From an uncultured Rhizobiaceae group bacterium (GTDB taxonomy: Bacteria > Pseudomonadota > Alphaproteobacteria > Rhizobiales > Rhizobiaceae), in contig CANMVS010000005.1 in assembly GCA_947501445.1 (NCBI GenBank), forward strand, positions 1 through 64,000: a stretch of DNA of 64,000 nt, read 5' to 3'. A program made the position numbers and the translations under genes. Position 1 is the stretch's first letter; the number at the start of each line of letters is the position of its first letter. Below, one piece after another: positions 6,001 to 55,026 of the stretch. The notes beneath the pieces are model-generated. The model was not told the DNA's origin, ran no database searches, and worked only from the letters and a program-made list of their open reading frames with translations.

Positions 6001-9000
6001 TCAGGCAAGGCTTCTGCCAAATGGTCTACCCGGCCAGTAACATGGCGATGCCAGTCACCACCCTCAGCAAGTCTGCTGAAGGCTTCAAAGGAAGAGGTCT
6101 CTGCTTCTACCGCCCTGTCCATTGCAAACTGCAGATCCCGTTTGACGCTTCCGTCGTGAAGAAACAAAGGTTCCAGGAAATCGATGTTTGATATCCTGCA
6201 CGGCACGCCTGCAGCCTGAATGGCCATGGCGATATAGCTGACACCGGGAATAACGGCCTCTTCGTAAACACGATGATCACCGATCCAGGGATGGGTGCCA
6301 AGGGTGCAACCCTGCTGATAGATACGCCTGCCCATTCCGGCCAGATCAACTGACAGGCCCAGCAACGGGTGATGATCCACGCCATTCAATGCCCGCTTGC
6401 CGCGCGCCGGTTCTTCAATCCAATAGCGCTGTCGCTGGAAAGGATAGGTGGGCAAGCTGATACGTCGGCGTTCCTCACCTGCGTAAAGGCCAGCAAAGGC
6501 GAGCTTTACCCCTTGCGCATACAAAGCAGCCAGCGAAGCAAAATAGTGATCTGTTGCTTTCTCACCACCACGCATCGCCGGAATGGCCAACGGTGGTGTG
6601 GCGTCCTGCTCATCTATCGCCTGTGGCCAAGCCTGCAGTATCATCGCGCTCAGAACCGGCTGCGGGCCGATCTCAATCACAATATCGATGTCCGCTTCAG
6701 CCAGTGCCGCAACACTATCTGCAAATTGAACCGGCTGCCTTGCATGTTGGCGCCAATATTGTGCATTCGGCACACTATCAGCATCAAATGCCTTGCCCGT
6801 CACATTGCTGATCAGACGGCGGGCTGGAGCCTGCATCTCAATTGTATTTGCGACTTTCTCAAGATCAGCCAGCACCGGATCAAGCAGGCTCGAATGAAAC
6901 GCATGGCTGGTCGTCAATCGATGACAACGAATGTCTTCAGCTTCAAAGCGCTCAATGGTTGCCTCAAGCAGATCAACAGGACCAGAGATTACCTGATGGG
7001 TACCATTGTAAGAGGCAATCTCAACCGGATGTTTGCCATCAGCATTAAGACCATCAAGAACAATTGTGATCGTCGCTGCATCGGCAAACACAGCTGCCAT
7101 AGACCCGGCATCAGGTCCTTCCGTTGGCAAGGCACCCATCAGTGCACCACGGGCTGCAATCAACCGCAGTCCATCTTCCAGTGCAAACACGCCCGCAGCA
7201 TGGGCCGCTGCATATTCACCGACGCTGTGGCCAAGCACAATGGATGCTTCAATGCCAATACTGCGATAGAGTTCAAGCAGGCCGACTTCCAACACATAGA
7301 GACAAGGCTGGGTCCAGACCGTATCGTCAACGTTCCCAGCGCTATTATTCCCCCCGAACATCACATCCAAAAGCGATGTTCCACGCAGTTCTTTGATCAC
7401 GCCATCACAGCGATCCAGCACATCCTTGAATACCGGCTCACTGTCATAGAGCGCTTTGCCCATGCCCACATACTGGCTGCCCTGACCCGTGAACACGAAA
7501 GCCACCTTCGGTGCGGCATTTGATGTTCCCGTCACAAGACCCGGTGCAGACCTGCCCTGTTTGAGTGCCTTGAGCTGTGCCTTCAGATCATCAGCTGTCT
7601 CAAATACCAATCCTGCACGATGGGTAAAGTGCGAGCGTGCTGTGCCAGCGGTAAACGCCATGTCGGCAAGTGTTACCGCATTGATATCCGGGCGTGCATC
7701 AAGCCACTGCTCATATCCACTCGCAACATCCACAAGGGCCTCATCAACCTTGCCAGACAAAGGCAGAATGTGGTGAGTTCGCGTGGGAGCCACTGCTGCA
7801 GCTTCAGTGCCACTAGCTGCTGTCTTATAGCCCTCAACAATCACATGCGCATTGGTGCCGGAGAAGCCGAAGGAGCTGACGCCGGCAATGCGCCTGCCAT
7901 CATCATTCGTTGGCCACGCACGTTTATGGGCGACAACTTCAACCGGCAGTACATCCCAGTCGATATGCGGATTGGGGGTCTCAAAATACAATTGGCCCGG
8001 AATAAAGCCTGTGTTGAGCGACTGCACCGTCTTGATCAGACCGGCAATACCGGCAGCAGCTTCCAGATGACCGATATTGGCCTTTACCGTGCCCAACAGC
8101 AGCGGGCTGTCATCGTTTCTGCCCGGTCCATAGGCCGCAGCTGCCGCACGCACTTCCACCGGATCGCCAAGCTCTGTACCCGTGCCATGACATTCAAGAT
8201 ATTGTACGTCCGCTGGCTTGATACCCGCTGATGCCAGTGCATCGCCAATCACCTGCTGTTGCGCTGGACCATTTGGAACAGTCAGACCGGAACTGGCTCC
8301 ATCCTGATTAACTGCACTGCCACGAATAACAGCAAGGATGTTGTCTCCCGCTTCCTGCGCATCGCTCAGCCGCTTGAGCACAACAACACCGCAGCCCTCG
8401 CCGCGCACATAACCATCCGCGCGTGCATCAAACGTCTTGCAATGTCCACCAGGCGACAACATGCGCGCCCGGCTTGTTGCAATCATGCCCTGCGGGCTCA
8501 GCAATGTGTTTACACCACCTGCAAGCGCCAGATTGCAATCTCCCAACCGCAATGCCTGACAGGCCTGATGCAGCGCCACAAGCGAAGACGAACAGGCCGT
8601 ATCAATTGCCATGGCCGGTCCCTGAAGACCAAGCGCATAGGATACACGCCCTGCAATCACACTCAGTGAGCCACCTGTTGCGCTATGGGCATCAATCTCA
8701 TTGCCGTCGGACAAACCGCCAAGGTTGCCATATTCATTGGGGCCAACACCCACAAACACACCGGTGCGAGAGGCACGAAGGCCATCAATGGCGATACCAC
8801 CCTGTTCCAGTGCCTGACAGGAGGTCTCAAGCAGCAGCCTTTGTTGCGGATCCATGCCAATGGCTTCTCTGGGACTGATGCCAAAGAACTGTGGGTCAAA
8901 CTGATCAATGCCATCAATGAACCCGCCCATGCGGGTATAGATTTTTCCAGCAACATCCGGATCAGGATCGTAGTACGCATCAATATCAAACCGGTCCTTT

Positions 9001-45900: not shown

Positions 45901-46821
45901 TCAACTGTCGGCCGGCATGATGGCGCCGCGATAACCGATCACGCGCACTGCACGGTGATGCCCTGCCAGAAGGGCATCACGCAGCGTTTCTCCGCTCAGC
46001 AGAGCAGCCAGAAATGCGCCATTGAAACTGTCACCTGCAGCAGTTGTGTCAACGACACTCATGGCCGGGGTGAACCCGGGCATGGGTTCAATCGTCTGAT
46101 TGATAGGTAGCGGGCCGGATGCACCGCGCTTCAGGGCGCCGGTTTTTATGCCATAATCGTTGAGCCGGGCCAGCGCCGCCATTTCGTCGGCATCACCAAA
46201 CAGGGCCATTTCATCGTCTACCGACGGCATGCCGATATCGCAAAGACGCCATGCCTGCGCCAGGGTTTCGCGGGCAACCTCGACATTTTCCCATAGCCGG
46301 GGCCTGTAATTGGAATCAAAGGCAAACCGCCCGCCCGTTGCACGAAAAGTTTCAATCCATTGCAGCAAAGCTGCGCGTATTTCAGGCGGCAGTATGGCCA
46401 GTGTTATGGCCGAGAGATAAACCACATCAAAGCTGTCAAGACAGGAAAAATCTGCCTCGCCGTTGGTCTGAAACAGGGTCCTTGCCGCTGAGGACTCCCG
46501 CCAATAGGCAAAGGACCGCTCACCGGCATCATCAGTGGTTATCGTATAAAGCCCCGGCAAACGATCTTCGATACGGGATAACTGCGTGGTCGACACCGAC
46601 TGCGCCTGGATGAAATCCACCATGCGTGACGACATCAAATCAGTTCCAATGACCGATACAAAGGCAACATCATCCTCAGTCGGCAAATCCCGTTTGAGAT
46701 AGATCGCTGTGTTCAATGTATCCCCGGCAAAACCAATATTCGCATTGCTGCCATCGGCATTGAGCACAAGCTCAATCATGGCTTCGCCGACACAGGCAAT
46801 GCGGTGGTGTGAATTGTTCAT
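45901..46821 (-). CDS. kdgK: 2-dehydro-3-deoxygluconate kinase, PfkB family
   Basis: 306 residues. N-terminal ACVGEAMIELVL and GFAGDTLNTAIYL (substrate-binding), FDSNYRPRLW (typical of KDG kinases), and the C-terminal signature DTTAAGDSFNGAFL with the catalytic Asp. KDG kinase makes 2-keto-3-deoxy-6-phosphogluconate from KDG in uronate catabolism. The GAGD of most PfkB proteins is AAGD here, also usual for KDG kinases. A diverged fragment of the same gene's 5' part lies at 54505-54600 on the other side of the CRISPR island, so this locus was the site of the island's insertion. Confidence 0.9.
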   Translation of the reverse strand: MNNSHHRIACVGEAMIELVLNADGSNANIGFAGDTLNTAIYLKRDLPTEDDVAFVSVIGTDLMSSRMVDFIQAQSVSTTQLSRIEDRLPGLYTITTDDAGERSFAYWRESSAARTLFQTNGEADFSCLDSFDVVYLSAITLAILPPEIRAALLQWIETFRATGGRFAFDSNYRPRLWENVEVARETLAQAWRLCDIGMPSVDDEMALFGDADEMAALARLNDYGIKTGALKRGASGPLPINQTIEPMPGFTPAMSVVDTTAAGDSFNGAFLAALLSGETLRDALLAGHHRAVRVIGYRGAIMPADS

Positions 46822-46914
46822 GTATATTATCCCCGAGTATGACGTAAAAGCTTAATAGCGTTTGTGCGGGGTTGACTGCAAGGGTATTGAAATGACGGTC
46901 TCACGAGGGACAGT

Positions 46915-46996
46915 TCAAAAATTGTCCCAGTGGCCAGGTGTTTGCAATTCCAGCACATTGCCATCGGGGTCATTGAAATAAAGCGCCCGCCCGGCG
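46915..46996 (-). pseudogene. 3' fragment of VOC (glyoxalase-like) gene
   Basis: This stretch encodes GRALYFNDPDGNVLELQTPG followed by HWDNF-stop. It is the same as the C-terminus of the intact VOC protein at 54604-55026, with only about three base differences in some 80 bp. The match stops abruptly at about 46996; upstream sequence is unrelated. The fragment has no start. It marks the left border of the CRISPR-Cas island. Confidence 0.85.
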
Positions 46997-47383: not shown

Positions 47384-47485
47384 GACAAAATTTGCCTACA
47401 TTTTCTGAACTGCTACAACGGACAGGCAGAACAACAAGTGCGCGCTCACGTTGCGGTTGGCCTACATTTTCAGAATTGCTGCGAT
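47384..47485 (+). CRISPR. Relic array: two degenerate repeats and one 30-nt spacer
   Basis: Repeat at 47384-47419 keeps GCCTACATTTTCTGAAC and TGCTACAAC but is degenerate over its first 12 bases. Repeat at 47450-47485 keeps GTTGCGGTTGGCC and TACATTTTC but has decayed at its end (CAGAATTGCTGCGAT). The spacer 47420-47449 is exactly 30 nt, as in the main array. It is about 600 bp left of array 1, in the same orientation, followed by a cas9 remnant. Probably inactive. Confidence 0.85.
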
Positions 47486-47533
47486 TTATGCGCCACAATG
47501 AAGGATTGTCGTTACTGCACGAATGACCGGTGA

Positions 47534-47800
47534 TCAGACGCCTACATCAAACAATGGGCGATCACACAGTTCAATAAGCTGTGTGATCGCATCACAGTCG
47601 TTCAGAATGCAGGCTAACCGCAACTCTACATTAAGCTCCTTTAAGAGCCCGTGATAGACCAGCCGGATATGGGTGGCGTCAAATCCGGGCTTCCCTGGAA
47701 ATTCGCTTACGTTCCGGTATACGACCAGGCTCCATACCGTAGCTAGGACCTCAGATGATTTTTTGGATTTAGTATCTGATGCCCAACACAAACATAGCAT
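47534..47800 (-). CDS. Unrecognised small open reading frame
   Basis: 88 codons between the relic array and the cas9 remnant. No domain, signal or homology was recognised. Its 3' part contains a perfect 12-bp inverted repeat (47558-47590). It could be a chance frame in decaying DNA. It is listed only because no other feature explains the region. Confidence 0.15.
   Translation of the reverse strand: MLCLCWASDTKSKKSSEVLATVWSLVVYRNVSEFPGKPGFDATHIRLVYHGLLKELNVELRLACILNDCDAITQLIELCDRPLFDVGV
47558..47590. repeat. Perfect 12-bp inverted repeat
   Basis: GCGATCACACAG and CTGTGTGATCGC flank a 9-nt loop. This is the strongest inverted repeat in the decayed part of the CRISPR island. There is no T-run. 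It might be a terminator stem, an operator or an end of a former mobile element. Confidence 0.6.
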
Positions 47801-47914
47801 TCAAGCAATGCATGTCAATCCCTCTACATTAAGTATATGACTTAGATTGCATCATCACAGTTCGATAGGTTGAAATTAGGGGGTATTTCGCATTAAAAAA
47901 TGCTTACGAAATTC

Positions 47915-48080
47915 ACGGTACTTGGCATGGAACTTAGTTCAAATTCACTGGCGAAGTGCCTGATTGTATCGGCCAGAGAACCCTGAAACGGCAATAAAGT
48001 GAGAGTCAATTCATCTGGTTCACGAATTTTTCCGATGGCAGGTCCCCAAATTTATTACTTCGCCGGCAGAGGAATGGAGC
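47915..48080 (+). pseudogene. Degenerate 5' end of a second cas9 gene
   Basis: Translation in the best frame gives SNSLAKCLIVSAREP, a stop codon, NGNKV..., then GSRIF. The intact Cas9 has SNSLGWCLIETAGEP, CSGNV..., GSRIF at the same spacing, and the DNA aligns over about 130 bp (for example TGCCTGATTG and AGAACCCTG identical). This is the RuvC-I region. The copy has an in-frame stop and ends a few bases before repeat 1 of array 1, so everything downstream of the first ~50 codons is gone. It shows that an older type II locus once stood here. Confidence 0.85.
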
Positions 48081-48087
48081 GTGACCG

Positions 48088-49046
48088 GTTGGGGTTGGCC
48101 TACATTTTCTGAACTGCTACAACCATCGCTCAGTGGTTCAAACGGGTTGCCGTGTTGCGGTTGGCCTACATTTTCTGAACTGCTAAAACCGGACTGGATA
48201 TTCATGCAGCCAGCCCCCGGTTGCGGTTGGCCTACATTTTCTGAACTGCTACAACCGTTCCACGGCTGGTATACCGGCGCCTACAGTTGCGGTTGGCCTA
48301 CATTTTCTGAACTGCTACAACCTCGTCTTTGACGGCGACAACAAGAGCAAGTTGCGGTTGGCCTACATTTTCTGAACTGCTACAACCAATAACCAGAATG
48401 CACGCTGCGCCTGTGTGTTGCGGTTGGCCTACATTTTCTGAACTGCTACAACCGGTCCCCGGCATTACTAAAGGGCTGGCATGTTGCGGTTGGCCTACAT
48501 TTTCTGAATTGCTACAACTGGCGCTGCATCCTCAAACATCTTCCTCACGTTGCGGTTGGCCTACATTTTCTGAACTGCTACAACGCACAAAGCAACCGGT
48601 ATTATGATCTTGTAGTTGCGGTTGGCCTGCATTTTCTGAACTGCTACAACGACAAGCGAAAAGTCAATTGGCTTTATGCTGTTGCGGTTGGCCTGCATTT
48701 TCTGAACTGCTACAACATCAAGAATACCATCGCCACCGCCTGTTGTGTTGCGGTTGGCCTGCATTTTCTGAACTGCTACAACCGGCTTCTGGCATGAGTT
48801 CTGGACCAACCCGTTGCGGTTGGCCTGCATTTTCTGAACTGCTACAACTATCAAATCGAAACCGTCAAGACCCATGCCGTTGCGGTTGGCCTGCATTTTC
48901 TGAACTGCTACAACTAAGCGCCTTGGCGCCCGCATCATCGTTTGGTTGCGGTTGGCCTGCATTTTCTGAACTGCTACAACTCGTCGTTTACTGGTGATTG
49001 CACGTCGGGAGTTGCGGTTGGCCTGCATTTTCTGAACTGCTACAAC
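48088..49046 (+). CRISPR. CRISPR array 1 (15 repeats, 14 spacers), type II-C
   Basis: The 36-bp repeats begin GTTGCGGTTGGCC and end CTGAACTGCTACAAC. Repeat starts: 48088, 48154, 48220, 48286, 48351, 48417, 48483, 48549, 48615, 48681, 48747, 48813, 48879, 48945, 49011. Spacers are 30 nt (one of 29). The first repeat (GTTGGGG) and second (CTAAAAC) are mutated, and repeat 7 has one change, so the old end is on the left. Repeats 1-8 read CCTACATTTT and repeats 9-15 CCTGCATTTT. The tracrRNA anti-repeat shows that crRNAs are read on the plus strand. TGCTACAAC at each repeat end resembles the extended -10 promoter known in Neisseria II-C repeats. Confidence 0.98.
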
Positions 49047-49092
49047 TGATATCGTCCAAAGAGTTGAAAAAAATCATCTTTTTGGCGATATC
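49047..49092 (+). promoter_or_regulatory. Array 1 leader-like hairpin
   Basis: Starting one base after the last repeat, GATATCG-T-CCAAA and TTTGG-CGATATC form an inverted repeat around an A-rich loop. The element TCGTCCAAAG..TGAAAA..AAT is repeated, inverted, at array 2, at the same 5-bp distance from its cas-facing repeat. It lies at the end with the best-conserved repeats, so it is probably the spacer-acquisition leader; a role as transcript terminator is also possible. Confidence 0.7.
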
Positions 49093-49182
49093 GTTGAGAA
49101 AAACGGTCTAATTCTGTGGAATTTACCCTCATTTTCATGCATTTTTTTCAGGTTGGGATCCAGCAGATGTGATCAATTTGTT

Positions 49183-49215
49183 AAAAAAGCAAAAAGCAGC
49201 CGCCGTAGCGACTGC
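49183..49215 (-). terminator. Intrinsic terminator of the tracrRNA
   Basis: An 8-bp stem GCAGTCGC / GCGGCTGC (one T-G pair) with loop TACG, followed on the minus strand by TTTTT-GC-TTTTTT. Confidence 0.85.
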
Positions 49216-49275
49216 CTTATTTGGTGCTATTCCAGCTTGTTAACGGCTGGCCTACATTTTCTGAACAATTCAAGG
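49183..49275 (-). ncRNA. tracrRNA
   Basis: On the minus strand, the anti-repeat (49274 to 49239) contains GTTCAGAAAATGTAGGCC and pairs with about 27 of the 36 repeat bases, with one G-U pair and a small bulge near the spacer side. It is followed by a short hairpin GCT-GGAAT-AGC, a nexus-like AAATAAGGC, and a perfect-length terminator stem GCAGTCGC-TACG-GCGGCTGC with TTTTTGCTTTTTT (49215 to 49183). A TTGACA box on the same strand at 49301-49296 would place transcription start near the beginning of the pairing segment. It is transcribed away from cas9. Confidence 0.88.
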
Positions 49276-49295
49276 TTGGCATATCTCCGGTACTG

Positions 49296-49301
49296 TGTCA
49301 A
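49296..49301 (-). promoter_or_regulatory. Candidate -35 box of the tracrRNA promoter
   Basis: TTGACA on the minus strand, about 30 bp upstream of the pairing part of the tracrRNA. A convincing -10 box was not identified, as is often the case in alphaproteobacteria. It overlaps the leader of the divergent cas9 gene, so the two promoters are close together. Confidence 0.4.
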
Positions 49302-49327
49302 ATTCTGCAACCTGTACGGGGAGACAC

Positions 49328-52300
49328 ATGAAAAAACAACCTGAATTGACAACGCTCGGTATTGACCTCGGGTCAAATTCGCTGGGATGGTGCCTGATTG
49401 AAACAGCTGGAGAACCCTGCAGCGGCAACGTAGGACGGATTATTGCGCTTGGTTCGCGGATTTTTTCCGATGGCCGGGATCCAAAATCAAAAGCTTCGCT
49501 GGCCGTCGACAGGCGGCAGGCCCGGGCAGCGCGGCGGCGACGGGAGCGTTATGTACGAAGGCGCACAGCGCTCCTCGCCCTTTTGACAAAATCCGGCCTG
49601 ATGCCCGCTGATGATCAGGCACGTAAACAACTGCTGCGTGATACCGGCGATGCCAAAGGCGGTGATGTGTCAATGGATGTCTACGCGCTGCGGGCAAAAG
49701 CGCTCGATCATAGGCTGCATCCGCATCAAATTGGCCGCATTCTGTTTCAACTCGACCAGCGTCGTGGCTTCAAATCCAATCGGCGCACTGACCGCGGCGA
49801 CAATGATGCAGGCAAAATCGCCACGGGTGTCGCGCGGCTTGATATGGCAATGGCGGACCAAAAGGCACGCACCTATGGTGAATTTTTGCATCAACGGCGT
49901 TTAAACGGTCAATCCGTACGCACCCGCCTTCGGCCTGAAGCGGCCGAGGGCACCAGTGGTGATGGTTATGATTTTTACCCGTCACGCGATCTTCTGGAAG
50001 CAGAATTTGATGCCATTTGCGCAGCACAGCGCACTCATCACCCGGATCAGCTTGATGAAGAAACGATCGCCAAACTACGTGACATTACTTTTTTCCAACG
50101 ACCGTTAAAGACACCTCAACCAGGCAAATGCAGCTATAATAACGATGAATTGCGACTGGCAAAGGCACATCCCCTGTTCCAGACATTTCGCCTGTATAAG
50201 GAAGTCAATGAACTTGCCCTGATTGGCGAAGACCAGACACCGGTCAAATTGACGGTAGCGCAAAGGGATGCGCTGATTCTCAAACTACGCACATCCAAAT
50301 CAGCAAGCTTTGCGGCATTGCGAAAGTTCCTCAAGATTGGCAGCGAATACAGGTTCAACAAGGAAACCGAAACACGCAGCAAGCTGCTTGGTGATGAGGT
50401 TTGTGCTGATTTGTCCAATAGGACGCGCTTTGGCAATGGCTGGGCCAGCTTGTCCACGGCACGCCAATGGGAGATCATCCAACGGCTGCGTGATACCGAG
50501 GACCCGCAATCCCTGGTGTACTGGCTGCAGAATAATGCGGGACTGACGCAAGAACAGGCTGAAGCTACGGCCCGATTAAACATGCCCATCGGTTATGGCC
50601 GTATTGGCCACACCGCCCTGTGCAATCTGCTTGATGCCTTGAAAAACGAAGTGGATGAAGAGGGCCGTGTCATAACAGAAGCCGAGGCGGCAAAACGCTG
50701 TGGCTATCATCATTCGGACAAATCCGATCCGGATTTTGAGGGTTATGACTGTCTGCCACCCTATCAGGAAGTGCTTGAGCAGCACATTCCGCCGGGCACT
50801 GGCAACCCGAAGGATATCTATGATATCTACAGGGGTCGCATAACCAATCCATCCGTGCATATTGCCCTCAACCAGCTGCGCAGATTGATCAATGAAATCA
50901 TTGGCCAATACGGAAAACCCGATAAAATAGCAGTGGAACTGGTCCGCGATCTGAAACTCAGCGACAGGGAAAAGGAAGAAATACGTCGAACTCAGGCGCG
51001 CAATACCCAGGCAGCAGAAATGCGCTCTGCCAAGCTTGCTGAACTTGGTCTGCCTGACACCGGTTACAATCGGCTCAGGCTGCACTTGTGGGAAGAACTT
51101 AATGAAAAGAGCCCTGAAAACAGGTTGTGTGTCTATTCAGGCGAACCCATCAGTATTTCAACTGTCTTCACCCCGGACGTGGATGTCGATCATATTTTGC
51201 CCTATTCTCGTACGCTGGATGACAGTCGGAGCAACAAGATATTGTGCAAAGCGCATTCAAACCGGCAAAAACGCAACCGCGCTCCGTCGGAAGTTACCGA
51301 ATGGCAGGCGGGTTACGAGAATATTCTGGCACGTGCACGCGCGTTGCCGCGCGGCAAACAGTGGCGTTTTGCAAATACTGCCATGGATCGTTCGAGTGAG
51401 GAAAACGGCTTTCTTGCGAGGCAATTAACAGACACACAATATATGACCCGGCTCGCACTTTCCTATCTGGCGGCACTATATCCAACAGAAGAGGCTGATG
51501 AGACAGGTCTTTTGAGGCGACACAAGCGTGTTCGGGCGCTTCCCGGGCGCACGACGGAAATGGTTCGTCGTCATTGGGGCCTCAATGATTTGCTTCAGGA
51601 CCACAATTACAGCGAAACAACGCAGGAGAAAAACCGCTCCGATCACCGCCATCACGCCATCGATGCGCTGGTTATAGCCTGCACAAGTGAATCCATGATC
51701 CAGAATATTGCCCGCGCCTCTGCGCAACGCGAAGCGGAAGGCGCGGAACGGGTCGTGGCAAGATCACAGCCAGCCTGGCCGAGTTTGCGTGAAGAATTGC
51801 GTGGTTTCCTGCGGGATGCCATTGTCAGTCACAAGGCTGACCACGGACGCCCCAACAATACCACCGGCGGAGGCGCCAAACGGCAGACAACCGGCAAATT
51901 GCACAATGACACGGCCTATGGCCCAACACAATTGACCGACAGCAAGGGCGCACCCATCGTTGTGCGCCGAAAAGCCATTGCCGAGTTCAGTAAATATGCC
52001 GACCTCGCTGCCATAAGAGACGAACACCTCAAGACAGCATTGCAGGCGGCAACTGCTGGCCTTGGCGGAAAGGATTTTGAACAGGCAGTGCTGGCTTTTT
52101 CAAAGAGGCCGGGTATTTATCGCAATATGCGCCGTATACGCATATTGGAAACCCTCAAGACAATTGGCATACGGGACAGGAACGGCATTGTTTACAAGAG
52201 TTACAAGGGAGATTCTAATGACCGGTTTGAGGTCTGGCAAATGCCTGACGGCAAATGGATAGCCGGTGCAGTGACGACTTTTGAAGCCAATCAACTCCAG

Positions 52301-52603
52301 GAGAATTGTCACAATGATCGGCCGCATCCAGCTGCAAAAAAAGTCTTGAAACTGAGGCAGCACGATATGTTGGCGATTGATCTTGATGGCACAACCAGTA
52401 TTTGCAGAGTGGTCAAATTCGGTCAATCTCAAATCGTTCTGGCACCACACCATGAAGCAGGCGCGCTGAAAAAGAGAGATGCCGAATTGGCGGATCCGTT
52501 TCGCTATATCAACCGATCGGCAGGTAGCCTGAAAAGGGATAATGCAAGACAGGTGCGCATTGACCTTCTTGGCCGTATTTTTGATCCTGGACCACTTCGT
52601 TAA
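49328..52603 (+). CDS. cas9: CRISPR-associated endonuclease Cas9, type II-C
   Basis: 1091 residues from ATG 49328, chosen for GGGGAG 5 nt upstream; the 11 codons before it are not family-like. Cas9 cuts both strands of target DNA guided by crRNA:tracrRNA. RuvC-I LGIDLGSNSLGW (Asp13); Arg-rich bridge helix at about 64-82 (RRQARAARRRRERYVRRR); RuvC-II KIAVELVRDLKL (Glu ~537); HNH DVDHILPYS (His ~622) with SNKILC (Asn ~636) and NRQKRNR; RuvC-III SDHRHHAIDALVIA (about 773-785). All catalytic residues are present. Length and the absence of csn2 or cas4 place it in subtype II-C. The C-terminal ~250 residues should form the PAM-interacting part. cas1 follows 53 bp downstream. Confidence 0.98.
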   Translation: MKKQPELTTLGIDLGSNSLGWCLIETAGEPCSGNVGRIIALGSRIFSDGRDPKSKASLAVDRRQARAARRRRERYVRRRTALLALLTKSGLMPADDQARKQLLRDTGDAKGGDVSMDVYALRAKALDHRLHPHQIGRILFQLDQRRGFKSNRRTDRGDNDAGKIATGVARLDMAMADQKARTYGEFLHQRRLNGQSVRTRLRPEAAEGTSGDGYDFYPSRDLLEAEFDAICAAQRTHHPDQLDEETIAKLRDITFFQRPLKTPQPGKCSYNNDELRLAKAHPLFQTFRLYKEVNELALIGEDQTPVKLTVAQRDALILKLRTSKSASFAALRKFLKIGSEYRFNKETETRSKLLGDEVCADLSNRTRFGNGWASLSTARQWEIIQRLRDTEDPQSLVYWLQNNAGLTQEQAEATARLNMPIGYGRIGHTALCNLLDALKNEVDEEGRVITEAEAAKRCGYHHSDKSDPDFEGYDCLPPYQEVLEQHIPPGTGNPKDIYDIYRGRITNPSVHIALNQLRRLINEIIGQYGKPDKIAVELVRDLKLSDREKEEIRRTQARNTQAAEMRSAKLAELGLPDTGYNRLRLHLWEELNEKSPENRLCVYSGEPISISTVFTPDVDVDHILPYSRTLDDSRSNKILCKAHSNRQKRNRAPSEVTEWQAGYENILARARALPRGKQWRFANTAMDRSSEENGFLARQLTDTQYMTRLALSYLAALYPTEEADETGLLRRHKRVRALPGRTTEMVRRHWGLNDLLQDHNYSETTQEKNRSDHRHHAIDALVIACTSESMIQNIARASAQREAEGAERVVARSQPAWPSLREELRGFLRDAIVSHKADHGRPNNTTGGGAKRQTTGKLHNDTAYGPTQLTDSKGAPIVVRRKAIAEFSKYADLAAIRDEHLKTALQAATAGLGGKDFEQAVLAFSKRPGIYRNMRRIRILETLKTIGIRDRNGIVYKSYKGDSNDRFEVWQMPDGKWIAGAVTTFEANQLQENCHNDRPHPAAKKVLKLRQHDMLAIDLDGTTSICRVVKFGQSQIVLAPHHEAGALKKRDAELADPFRYINRSAGSLKRDNARQVRIDLLGRIFDPGPLR

Positions 52604-52656
52604 CCAAATATTAAGACCCTACACCCATAAGCCGCAAACAATGATACAAATCAATC

Positions 52657-53580
52657 ATGGATCGTATTGTTGACATATCAAGTGAGGGGCTGCACTTGTC
52701 CGTCTATCGCGGTTTCCTCAAAGTATCTCGTGACGAGGCAGAGATCGGCAGGATACCACTGGACGATATCGGTGCAATAATCACTCATGCGCACGGATTG
52801 ATTTGGTCCAACAATTTGATTGTCAAGTTGTCCACAAAAAACATTCCGGTTGTAATCTGTGCCGCCAACCATGTCCCTGTCTCATGTCTATGGCCAATTG
52901 TTGGCCATCACCAGCAGGGCGCACGCATGCAGGCTCAGGCAGGGGCGACAAAGCCACTGCGCAAGCGACTGTGGCGTCAGGTTGTTCAGAGCAAAATCGA
53001 TATGCAACACGCCGTACTCAAATCCATTGGCAGTCAAGAAGTTTCGCTGGCTCAAATGGCACTGCGTGTGCGATCAGGAGACCCTGAAAATCTGGAGGCC
53101 CAGGCGGCGAGGCGTTACTGGCCGGCCCTCATGGGCCCGGAATTCAGACGCAACTCGGAGGGTACCGGCGCGAATGCCCTATTGAACTATGGGTACACAA
53201 TATTGCGGGCAATTGTCTCGCGAGCAATTTGTGGCGCTGGCCTCCATCCGTCATTTTCGCTTCACCATTCCAGTCGTATCAATGCATTTGCACTTGCTGA
53301 TGACTTGATGGAACCCTATCGGCCATTGATTGATTGTGCTGTCAGGTCAATGATCAAAGGAGGTATGTGTGATCTTGATACATCCGCCAAGACGATATTG
53401 TCTTCAATTGGCACACTCGACCTCATGAATGAAGATGGTATCGGCCCATTGACCACACATATCGGCCGCCTGTTGCAGTCTCTTGTTGCTATCTACGAGG
53501 GTTCAAAAGCAGGCCTGCAGCTCCCCTCTCCTCCGCCGCCGCTTGTTTTGGCCGGTATTGGACGTGGTGCAGACGATTGA
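52657..53580 (+). CDS. cas1: CRISPR-associated integrase Cas1, type II-C
   Basis: 307 residues. Metal ligands are recognisable: Glu in DPENLEAQAARRYWPAL (about 149), His in LHPSFSLHH (about 205), and Asp in NAFALADDLMEPYRPLID (about 220). The N-terminal beta domain begins MDRIVDISSEGLHLSVYRGF. With Cas2 it inserts new spacers at the leader end of an array. The stop codon overlaps the TTG start of cas2. Full length and intact, so acquisition is probably still possible. Confidence 0.97.
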   Translation: MDRIVDISSEGLHLSVYRGFLKVSRDEAEIGRIPLDDIGAIITHAHGLIWSNNLIVKLSTKNIPVVICAANHVPVSCLWPIVGHHQQGARMQAQAGATKPLRKRLWRQVVQSKIDMQHAVLKSIGSQEVSLAQMALRVRSGDPENLEAQAARRYWPALMGPEFRRNSEGTGANALLNYGYTILRAIVSRAICGAGLHPSFSLHHSSRINAFALADDLMEPYRPLIDCAVRSMIKGGMCDLDTSAKTILSSIGTLDLMNEDGIGPLTTHIGRLLQSLVAIYEGSKAGLQLPSPPPPLVLAGIGRGADD

Positions 53581-53951
53581 CCACACTTTATACACAACAT
53601 TCAAAAGGGCAGGAGGGGCCAACATGGCTTTCTTCCTATCGACTCATGTGGATATTGGTAACATTCGACCTACCCGTTGAAACACGGAAACAACGCAAGG
53701 CAGCCGCTGATTTCAGACTGTTTTTGCTGGACCAGGGGTATGAAATGAGTCAGCTGTCAAATTATATGCGTTTTTGCAACGGACAGGAACAATTCAACGC
53801 ACACACCCGGCGAATCGAATCCAATCTGCCCGAACGCGGTGATATTTACATCTTTCAATTTACTGACAGACAATATGAAAATATAACCAGATTTTCAGAT
53901 CAGTCGCGACGAAAACGCAAGAAAAACCCGTCTCAATTGGCGTTGTTTTAA
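53577..53951 (+). CDS. cas2: CRISPR-associated protein Cas2, type II-C
   Basis: Up to 124 residues. Core: LMWILVTFDLPVETRKQRKA (first strand with the conserved Asp), DFRLFLLDQGYEMSQLSNYM, and a C-terminal RGDIYIFQFTDRQYENI. The start used is TTG 53577, which overlaps the cas1 stop, because the segment WLSSYRLMW before the first internal Met is conserved in II-C Cas2 proteins; ATG 53646 would remove it. Cas2 dimerises and bridges two Cas1 dimers in the spacer integrase. Confidence 0.93.
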   Translation: MTTLYTQHSKGQEGPTWLSSYRLMWILVTFDLPVETRKQRKAAADFRLFLLDQGYEMSQLSNYMRFCNGQEQFNAHTRRIESNLPERGDIYIFQFTDRQYENITRFSDQSRRKRKKNPSQLALF

Positions 53952-53970
53952 CACGCCATGGCGTTTTTTT
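53952..53970 (+). terminator. Terminator of the cas operon
   Basis: Directly after the cas2 stop, ACGC-CATG-GCGT is followed by a T-run (TTTTTTT). The stem is short but placement and T-run fit an intrinsic terminator separating cas2 from array 2. Confidence 0.55.
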
Positions 53971-53980
53971 CTGCGCAAAA

Positions 53981-54022
53981 TCGTCCAAAATACCATTCTT
54001 TTCAGTACTTTGGACGACAGCT
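53981..54022 (-). promoter_or_regulatory. Array 2 leader-like hairpin
   Basis: TCGTCCAAA (53981-53989) and TTTGGACGA (54009-54017) are a perfect 9-bp inverted repeat. Read on the minus strand, TCGTCCAAAG..CTGAAAAGAAT..TTTTGG matches the element beside array 1, and both lie 5 bp from the nearest repeat. This is the cas-facing end of array 2. Confidence 0.7.
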
Positions 54023-54452
54023 GTTGTAGCAGTTCAGAAATTGTGGGCCAACCGCAACTATTCCAGCCCGTGAACGGACTCCAGATAGGTTGTAGCAGTT
54101 CAGAAATTGTAGGCCAACCGCAACTGGCACGTGCTCAAATGGCCGTCAAACAAGTTGTAGCAGTTCAGAAATTGTAGGCCAACCGCAACTTGCCATTGCG
54201 CATGGGTATAACCTTCGCAGTTGTAGCAGTTCAGAAATTGTAGGCCAACCGCAACTGTAAGGGAACCAGTAAGTCAACCAGTAAGGTTGTAGCAGTTCAG
54301 AAATTGTAGGCCAACCGCAACCATGACCTTCACACGCGAACAAATCAAAGAGTTGTAGCAGTTCAGAATTTGTAGGCCAACCGCAACGCTGAGTTTCTTT
54401 TGTCCCTCCATATGGGGTTGTAGCAGTTCAGAAATTGTAGGCCAACAGCAAC
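54023..54452 (-). CRISPR. CRISPR array 2 (7 repeats, 6 spacers), inverted relative to array 1
   Basis: On the plus strand the repeats begin GTTGTAGCAGTTCAGAAATTG and end GGCCAACCGCAAC; this is the reverse complement of the array 1 type. Starts: 54023, 54089, 54154, 54220, 54286, 54352, 54417. Spacers are 29-30 nt. Repeat 1 has one change (GTGGGCC), repeat 6 reads CAGAATTTG and repeat 7 CCAACAGCAAC, so the far right end is the old end. By the tracrRNA, crRNAs are read on the minus strand, towards cas2. All repeats differ from array 1 at one fixed position (CAATTTC instead of CATTTTC in crRNA sense). Confidence 0.97.
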
Positions 54453-54504: not shown

Positions 54505-54600
54505 TCGCCGTGATCGATGTGTCACCGGCAAAACCAGTATTCGCATTACGGCCATCGGCTTTGATTTCAATGCTGAATCAATGGCGATATCTCCGCCGAC
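54505..54600 (-). pseudogene. Fragment of the 5' part of a kdgK gene
   Basis: On the minus strand one frame reads FSIEIKADGRNANTGFAGDT. The intact KDG kinase at 45901-46821 has IELVLNADGSNANIGFAGDT. The DNA is alignable (for example CGGCAAAACCA-TATTCGCATT) but clearly diverged, more than the VOC pieces. Both ends are broken: it stops at the last repeat of array 2 on one side and joins the VOC 3' end directly on the other. It marks the right border of the CRISPR island. Confidence 0.8.
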
Positions 54601-54603
54601 AGT

Positions 54604-55026
54604 TCAAAAATTGTCCCAGTGGCCAGGTGTTTGCAGTTCCAGCACATTGCCATCAGGGTCATTGAAGTAAAGCGCCCGCCCGCCCCTCGGCCAGACAACC
54701 TCGCTGACAATGGGTATATTTTCTTCCTCAAAGGCGGCCTTCCACCCATCGTAGTCAGCAACAGAGATGTGAAACGCCATATGGGCAGGGCCCTTTGCCG
54801 TGTGCCCGGGAATAAAACTGTTGTTGAACGGTTTATCCGTTTCACACCATCCGCGCAGAAAAACGATAAGGACCTGCGCCGTACCGGCTTCAAAAACCAA
54901 CATTCCCGGGCCATCACGCGTCAGACGCAAATCAAGAAAACCTTCAAAAAATGTTTGGCTTTTAGCCAGATCATCGCTGTAGAGAACCGTCTCGCATATG
55001 CCACGGATAGTCGGTTTTTGCGTCAT
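54604..55026 (-). CDS. VOC / glyoxalase-bleomycin resistance family protein
   Basis: About 140 residues from ATG 55026 (GGAGAT 5-6 nt upstream). Two beta-alpha-beta-beta-beta modules: ICETVLYSDDLAKSQTFFEG with LDLRLTRDGPGMLVFEAG, and GPAHMAFHISVADYDGWKAA with GRALYFNDPDGNVLELQTPG. The second-half Glu and the His of HMAFHI suit a metal site. VOC proteins include glyoxalases and dioxygenases; the substrate is unknown. Its 3' end is duplicated at 46915-46996, on the far side of the CRISPR island, beside kdgK, which should have been its original downstream neighbour. Confidence 0.9.
   Translation of the reverse strand: MTQKPTIRGICETVLYSDDLAKSQTFFEGFLDLRLTRDGPGMLVFEAGTAQVLIVFLRGWCETDKPFNNSFIPGHTAKGPAHMAFHISVADYDGWKAAFEEENIPIVSEVVWPRGGRALYFNDPDGNVLELQTPGHWDNF

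Follow-up and report, generated by a model that had tools for sequence, protein, structure and literature searches.

By sequence, the CRISPR-Cas9 (clustered regularly interspaced short palindromic repeats) locus in a 64,000-nucleotide stretch of DNA from an uncultured Rhizobiaceae group bacterium (hereafter the window; contig CANMVS010000005.1 of assembly GCA_947501445.1) is of type II-C. Both of its arrays carry the same hairpin in the leader, directly beside the last repeat to be transcribed. The leader hairpin is a widely conserved, covarying element across the leaders sampled for this study. We lean towards the explanation that the II-C leader doubles as the 3' boundary of its array, the hairpin ending or capping the array transcripts. 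The arrays and their leaders lie as follows (crRNA, CRISPR RNA; z, z-score of the fold).

48088 to 49046, plus strand (crRNA strand): CRISPR array 1, 15 repeats of 36 nt with spacers of about 30 nt, upstream of cas9
49047 to 49051, plus strand: 5-bp gap from the last repeat of array 1 to the shared 10-mer; bases 2-5 are already paired in the hairpin
49048 to 49092, plus strand: leader 1 hairpin, 18 pairs, -21.6 kcal/mol, z -6.0
53980 to 54018, minus strand: leader 2 hairpin core, 15 uninterrupted pairs; the fold including flanking pairs has -21.3 kcal/mol, z -5.3
54018 to 54022, minus strand: 5-bp gap from the first repeat of array 2 to the shared 10-mer
54023 to 54452, minus strand (crRNA strand): CRISPR array 2, 7 repeats, far end at 54452, downstream of cas2

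An earlier, sequence-only reading of the window had described a shared element exactly 5 bp from the repeats of both arrays and inverted at array 2. Its coordinates are correct. The 10-mer TCGTCCAAAG starts at 49052, five bases past the last repeat of array 1 (49011-49046), and its inverted copy occupies 54008-54017, which leaves five bases up to the first repeat of array 2 (54023-54058). Without gaps, leader 1 and leader 2 are identical at 35 of 52 positions, and the repeat-plus-leader stretches of 94 nt are 79% complementary between the two arrays. The stems noted by the same reading, including a perfect one of 9 bp at array 2, were found again. That of leader 1 has 17 Watson-Crick pairs and one G-U pair, with one bulged base and one mismatch; that of leader 2 has 12 Watson-Crick pairs, the 9-bp core among them, and three G-U pairs. 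None of 200 dinucleotide shuffles was as stable as the fold of leader 1 (53 nt) or of leader 2 (59 nt). With longer flanks (74 and 83 nt) the z-scores were -3.9 and -3.1, and 2/200 and 4/200 shuffles were as good. The leader hairpins have the stable stem-loop of an intrinsic terminator. No Rfam 15 family matched the window between 46500 and 55200 at E-values up to 1. The earlier observation of a shared hairpin leader at the cas-facing end is confirmed.

Relatives were collected by a Cas1 search, which gave at least 80 named loci; further loci came from genome searches, and part of them were fetched. Among the 80 named loci listed, a full-length repeat unit was obtained for 66; 3 gave a partial unit and were left out, and 11 gave none. 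The alphaproteobacterial leaders number 89 with both window leaders included, 83 of them distinct; among these 83 are L121, whose title reads Planctomycetaceae, and two loci titled only Proteobacteria (L097 and L144). Other classes of the same phylum contributed 16 fetched loci, 11 of which gave an array. A z-score below -3 was found for 74 of the 83 distinct alphaproteobacterial leaders (median -5.7) and for 9 of the 11 leaders of other classes, compared with 1 of 62 far flanks and 1 of 81 cas2 interiors used as controls. Eight of 17 plasmid matches were fetched for phyla beyond Pseudomonadota, although some of them are Pseudomonadota. Five of their leaders reach z < -4 (Azospirillum, Limnohabitans, Phocaeicola, Pigmentibacter and Pasteurella), and z is -1.1 for that of Ilyobacter and near 0 for those of Persicobacter and Tistrella.

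The fold is kept with little conservation of the letters. Over positions 1-48 the mean ungapped identity is 0.39 in the 77 of 83 leaders with a hairpin score of at least 20; this cut-off is weak, being reached also by 12 of 40 shuffled leaders, and the case therefore rests on the arm-swap and z-score tests. In the arm-swap test on all 83 leaders, best-register pairing gives 10.66 of 15 Watson-Crick pairs for a leader's own arms and a mean of 6.81 for swapped arms; none of 5000 permutations exceeded 7.41. In 12 leaders of equal register (set A3), 14 of 16 pairs are changed on both sides (shuffles: mean 10.1, reached in 4/500), and changes on both sides occur in 66 cells (shuffles: mean 19.9, reached in 0/500). 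The choice of these 12 favours pairing; arm swapping involved no such choice. MAFFT with RNAalifold on 66 leaders gave no consensus pair, which we think is due to the differing register of the 3' arms, and the resulting model R1, without pairs, was not used.

A covariance model built from the 12 leaders (R2) gave 41 matches in 70 other sources (888 kb). By coordinates, 40 of them lie at leaders, in 32 different loci, and one lies elsewhere (L074:2200-2236). On 20 further loci it gave three matches, two at the leader (L205, L224) and one close to the end of a contig, with no array found there (L217). In a genome search it matched in 7 of 14 genomes, none of the matches being in the window's genome. 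The model also finds ordinary hairpins. Seven of its eight matches away from cas loci were examined (G179:C5 is the eighth); the three in genome G282 stand beside repeats, and those in G005:C20, G179:C8, G254:C30 and G018:C6 do not.

In G282 one copy of the hairpin stands at the cas locus and three copies stand on another contig (L233 and L234; contig 2). These three directly adjoin repeats like those of the cas locus, in rows of 4, 2 and 21. The sole Cas1 match of the genome lies at the cas locus; no search of the other contig was aimed at cas9. Each of the four hairpins has a tract of seven or eight T behind it. Five of 18 pairs are changed on both sides among the four leaders, which 3/500 shuffles reached. 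Since arrays away from cas1 keep it, the hairpin appears to belong to the array and its leader, not to the end of the cas operon; window array 1, which carries the hairpin though not next to cas2, also suggests this. The largest of the G282 arrays away from cas1 has decayed repeats at its far end.

The genes between the arrays, with that of the trans-activating crRNA (tracrRNA), from which the direction of reading follows, are these.

49180 to 49275 (ends approximate), minus strand: tracrRNA gene, between array 1 and cas9, convergent with array 1
49328 to 52603, plus strand: cas9 (TIGR01865, E 5.9e-169); the reading frame is open from GTG 49295, with ATG 49328 as the likely start
52657 to 53580, plus strand: cas1, type II (TIGR03639, E 5.7e-69)
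53577 to 53951, plus strand: cas2 (TIGR01573; Cas2_II)

The order cas9, cas1, cas2, all on the plus strand, is that of type II-C. The tracrRNA consists, by its predicted parts, of a minus-strand anti-repeat (49240-49275) followed by a terminator hairpin with a T-tract (49218-49193). Its complementarity sets the crRNA strand, and therefore both arrays read towards the cas genes and the hairpin, as the sequence-only reading had deduced from the tracrRNA. In the relatives, repeat orientation likewise indicates the crRNA-towards-leader direction of type II-C, and the arrays are oriented relative to cas1 like array 2 in all 66 of the named loci with a full-length repeat unit. The same reading had taken the best-conserved repeats to lie at the leader and the mutated ones at the far ends. 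This holds for array 1, with its decayed far copies and one substitution (repeat position 15) shared by the seven leader-proximal repeats, which is what copying of new repeats at this end would produce. For array 2 the polarity is weak; compared with its own consensus, two far-end repeats and the leader-proximal repeat have one substitution each. Growth at the leader end is borne out by the relatives: the far-end repeat is mutated in 36 of 70 arrays (at least 4 repeats and an intact far end required) and the leader-proximal repeat in 1 of 70. A comparison of 1922 spacers from 95 arrays gave no exact 20-mer in common that could show the growing end.

Placing the leader downstream of the array was right but is not new. 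As far as the available sections of the cited papers go, in type II-C new spacers enter via the last repeat and every repeat has its own promoter (PMC12080349), arrays are expressed towards their variable end (PMC8092290; also stated in PMC13187072), promoters in Campylobacter repeats have been shown (PMC3656092) and acquisition occurs at the leader end in Riemerella (PMC6008519). Direction and growing end therefore agree with the published II-C layout (PMC12080349, PMC8092290, PMC6008519).

The kind of imperfect pairs indicates on which molecule the hairpin is formed. On the crRNA strand, 77 alphaproteobacterial leaders contain 103 G-U and 40 A-C oppositions (symmetric scoring; 54.5% expected from arm composition), and all 83 contain 117 and 46. 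Counted per leader (n=77), G-U is in excess in 44, A-C in 13 and neither in 20. With one leader for each of 28 similarity clusters, about 36 G-U stand against 12 A-C (p 0.005), and shuffled leaders have 172 and 164. The G-U excess fits RNA of the crRNA strand. Because the pairing covaries and G-U is in excess, a hairpin of transcribed RNA is indicated, and the T-tracts of some relatives point to the ending of transcription there. The interpretation given by the sequence-only reading is thus partly supported: the hairpin leader, the crRNA direction and the growing end stand, and what covariation and G-U pairs point to is a hairpin in transcribed RNA.

Terminator anatomy was scored by a rule of our own (stem, short loop and T-tail). 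Of the 11 leaders of other classes, 9 satisfy it on the crRNA strand and 3 on the opposite one; together with four alphaproteobacterial loci (15 in all), the counts are 10 and 4, and shuffles give 0 to 1. For the alphaproteobacteria they are 13/83 and 3/83, and one of the 13 (L082) is a different hairpin. The ending of transcription is thus well founded by anatomy in G282 and in most of the other-class leaders. Bidirectional intrinsic terminators form a class. Several relatives of other classes resemble it, with an A-run, stem and T-run at this place, whereas most alphaproteobacterial copies, those of the window included, have no T-run and a longer stem.

Promoters within the repeats would supply the transcripts. 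The repeats of the relatives end in a -10-like TAnnnT, with T31 and A32 in 81/81 units and T36 in 86%; the last base of this element is also the last base of the repeat, and a -35-like element lies 17 bp before it. The corresponding bases suggest a promoter in the last repeat of array 1.

49018 to 49046, plus strand: putative promoter in the last repeat of array 1 (TTGGCC, 17 bp, TACAAC), from the conserved -10-like bases of the relatives

The predicted start is near 49053, at about leader base 7 and inside the foot of the hairpin, so that the transcript from the last repeat would begin at the hairpin foot.

We propose the following mechanism. Array transcripts would start at promoters inside the repeats and run towards the leader, where the RNA just past the last repeat would fold into the hairpin. 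The hairpin would then end the transcript, or fix and protect its 3' end. Polymerase would thereby be kept out of the convergent tracrRNA gene at array 1 or out of cas2 at array 2, and also off the junction where Cas1-Cas2 insert spacers. The sequences themselves show where the hairpin lies, that it is conserved and covaries, and how the arrays of relatives are polarised; transcription through the leader, its termination and this insulation of the neighbours are what we infer. Since spacers would be inserted between the hairpin and the last repeat, the boundary would stay in place as the array grows. Most sampled relatives of other classes would use a classical intrinsic terminator at this place. 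In most alphaproteobacteria, including the window, the stem is longer and there is no clear T-tract, and the ending would need Rho or 3' trimming to the hairpin.

Several observations weigh against this proposal. Eight of the 83 alphaproteobacterial leaders fall short of a z-score of -2, and 26 form fewer than 10 of 15 pairs in one register, window leader 1 among them. Model R2 found neither window leader, matched both strands in 8 of the 32 leader loci and gave its best or only match opposite to the crRNA strand in L061, L101, L112 and L131. All five compensated pairs of G282 come from one leader. There is no clear G-U bias at positions 12-17 of the alphaproteobacterial leaders (27 G-U, 20 A-C) or in the 11 leaders of other classes (13 and 9), and strand-biased C-to-T mutation could be another source of the excess. 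On the crRNA strand, no classical terminator is scored for 70 of the 83 alphaproteobacterial leaders, and between 0 and 5 of 83 shuffled ones score. The window hairpins have no T-tract and neither is called a terminator, so that termination there can only be inferred; around array 1 the plus strand has three other terminator-like matches, located within two repeats and within the tracrRNA region. A consensus promoter scan did not score the window repeats as promoters. GAT at 2-4, A13 and TG at 20-21 are conserved at a constant distance from the repeat, and some other-class leaders have the TTG within the stem; this suggests that the leader also makes contacts as DNA.

These contacts lead to the most serious alternative, in which the hairpin acts as DNA in acquisition, as an inverted repeat recognised by Cas1-Cas2 or a bending protein and perhaps extruded as a cruciform. 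It lies at the acquisition end, where Riemerella acquires spacers according to the available part of PMC6008519. The fixed-distance bases, an A-rich stretch common near leader positions 55-59, the R2 matches on either strand and the three G282 arrays that keep the hairpin away from cas1 would all suit such a role. However, a protein site on duplex DNA would keep its sequence, whereas here the letters of the stem change and the pairing stays; the imperfect pairs of alphaproteobacteria are G-U rather than A-C, and the T-tracts favour the crRNA strand. We consider such a role unlikely. The fixed-distance bases and the A-rich stretch look like DNA contacts, so that two kinds of signal may be present in the leader. 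A short A/T run (A4, T4, AAAT or ATTT) lies beyond the hairpin, within positions 50-66, in 62 of 83 leaders, a count without a chance control, and is a candidate acquisition contact site. It is conceivable, though rather improbable, that both roles are joined in one element for crRNA production and acquisition: folding of the array RNA would end transcription at the Cas1-Cas2 site, and the folded leader, as RNA or extruded DNA, would mark or expose the site of insertion.

Similarly improbable is that the hairpin belongs to a leader RNA starting at about leader base 7, either as its 5' end or as a site where it is processed, the stem of 15-18 bp being cut by RNase III or stabilising the RNA. 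The -10-like element at the exact repeat end, 17 bp after the -35-like element, and the long stems, which would suit RNase III, are in line with it; but the window repeats do not score as promoters, the terminators of the relatives do not need a leader RNA, and stem bases 1-6 would go untranscribed from the last promoter. That the hairpin only terminates a cas operon which happens to end beside the array could be argued from its usual place between cas2 and the array and from copies that score on both strands (the 3 of 11 other-class leaders that also score on the cas strand). Array 1 is not downstream of cas2, however, the three G282 arrays on another contig keep the hairpin and the T-tract, and T-tracts favour the crRNA strand. 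We rejected this as the sole explanation, since array 1 and the G282 arrays largely contradict it, and give it very little probability. The window leaders are close copies, and their likeness alone proves little, yet it is hardly credible that they are alike merely by recent duplication with an incidental hairpin: diverged relatives have it at the same place with unlike stems, and the arm-swap pairing and z-scores in relatives contradict duplication as the only cause, which was rejected. An RNA boundary at the leader end thus remains the explanation we prefer.

The cas operon of the window is compact, with 53 bp between cas9 and cas1, overlapping cas1 and cas2, and 71 bp between cas2 and array 2. 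These gaps leave no room for csn2 (II-A) or cas4 (II-B), and neither is present within the operon. The PfkB kinase, glyoxalase-like and sugar transporter genes flanking the locus had no match in a defence library, in a scan limited to these three flanks. Beyond the far end of array 1 lie further remnants.

47384 to 47485, plus strand: two decayed repeats (starts 47384 and 47450) with 7 and 5 mismatches

An inverted repeat fragment lies near 47600-47626, and a cas9 5' fragment at 47921-48067 is 69% identical to 49355-49503. From these three remnants, array 1 may sit in a decayed tandem copy of the locus (47384-48067). The whole CRISPR-Cas locus is flanked by direct copies of a chromosomal segment (46704-46993 and 54505-54682, in blocks 81-96% alike) made up of the end of the PfkB kinase gene and the end of the glyoxalase-like gene. 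These copies look as if the locus had entered by recombination that duplicated the site. Two relatives are unusual as well. In Azospirillum thermophilum (L225, 1251-4495) cas9 is annotated as two overlapping pieces, adjoined by a 31-repeat array with an intact leader hairpin. In Pseudaminobacter arsenicus (L073, which is locus L053; about 6873-6913) the array begins about 40 bases past the cas1 match, and cas2 and the leader hairpin therefore seem to be missing.

The window locus shares with the II-C systems of Campylobacter jejuni, Neisseria and Riemerella the order cas9-cas1-cas2, an array downstream of cas2 and acquisition at the last-transcribed repeat (PMC3656092, PMC12080349, PMC6008519); the repeat promoters of those systems have a putative counterpart in the -10-like bases. 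It differs by its second array, upstream of cas9, and by the conserved leader hairpin, which the available sections of these papers do not describe. A palindrome is reported in the CRISPR1 II-C leader of Riemerella anatipestifer (PMC5006608), but for one species and with the leader taken as upstream with predicted promoters; the part of that paper at hand considers neither covariation nor a terminator. Rho-independent terminators and ecrRNA hairpins also bound II-C arrays (PMC12080349). They are described there as upstream, at the far end with the oldest spacers, where they block entry, whereas the hairpin of the window is at the leader end. In type II-A and type VI, too, structured leader RNA lies beside the newest repeat (PMC13187072, PMC12080349); those leaders are upstream and pair with the first repeat, whereas the window leader lies downstream and folds on itself. 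No account of a conserved leader hairpin was found in the available sections of the literature on II-C leaders, including PMC4607530, PMC4624362 and PMC10281378, which does not establish its absence from print. Unlike the order of array and then leader, which is already known, the generality of the II-C leader hairpin was not found in these sources.

The II-C leader lies where array transcripts arrive. For what stops the repeat promoters from firing into the tracrRNA gene, the cas genes and the acquisition site, no explanation was found in the available II-C literature. A covarying hairpin, present also at arrays away from cas genes, offers a simple and testable answer, and it could mark the growing end and the strand of II-C arrays.

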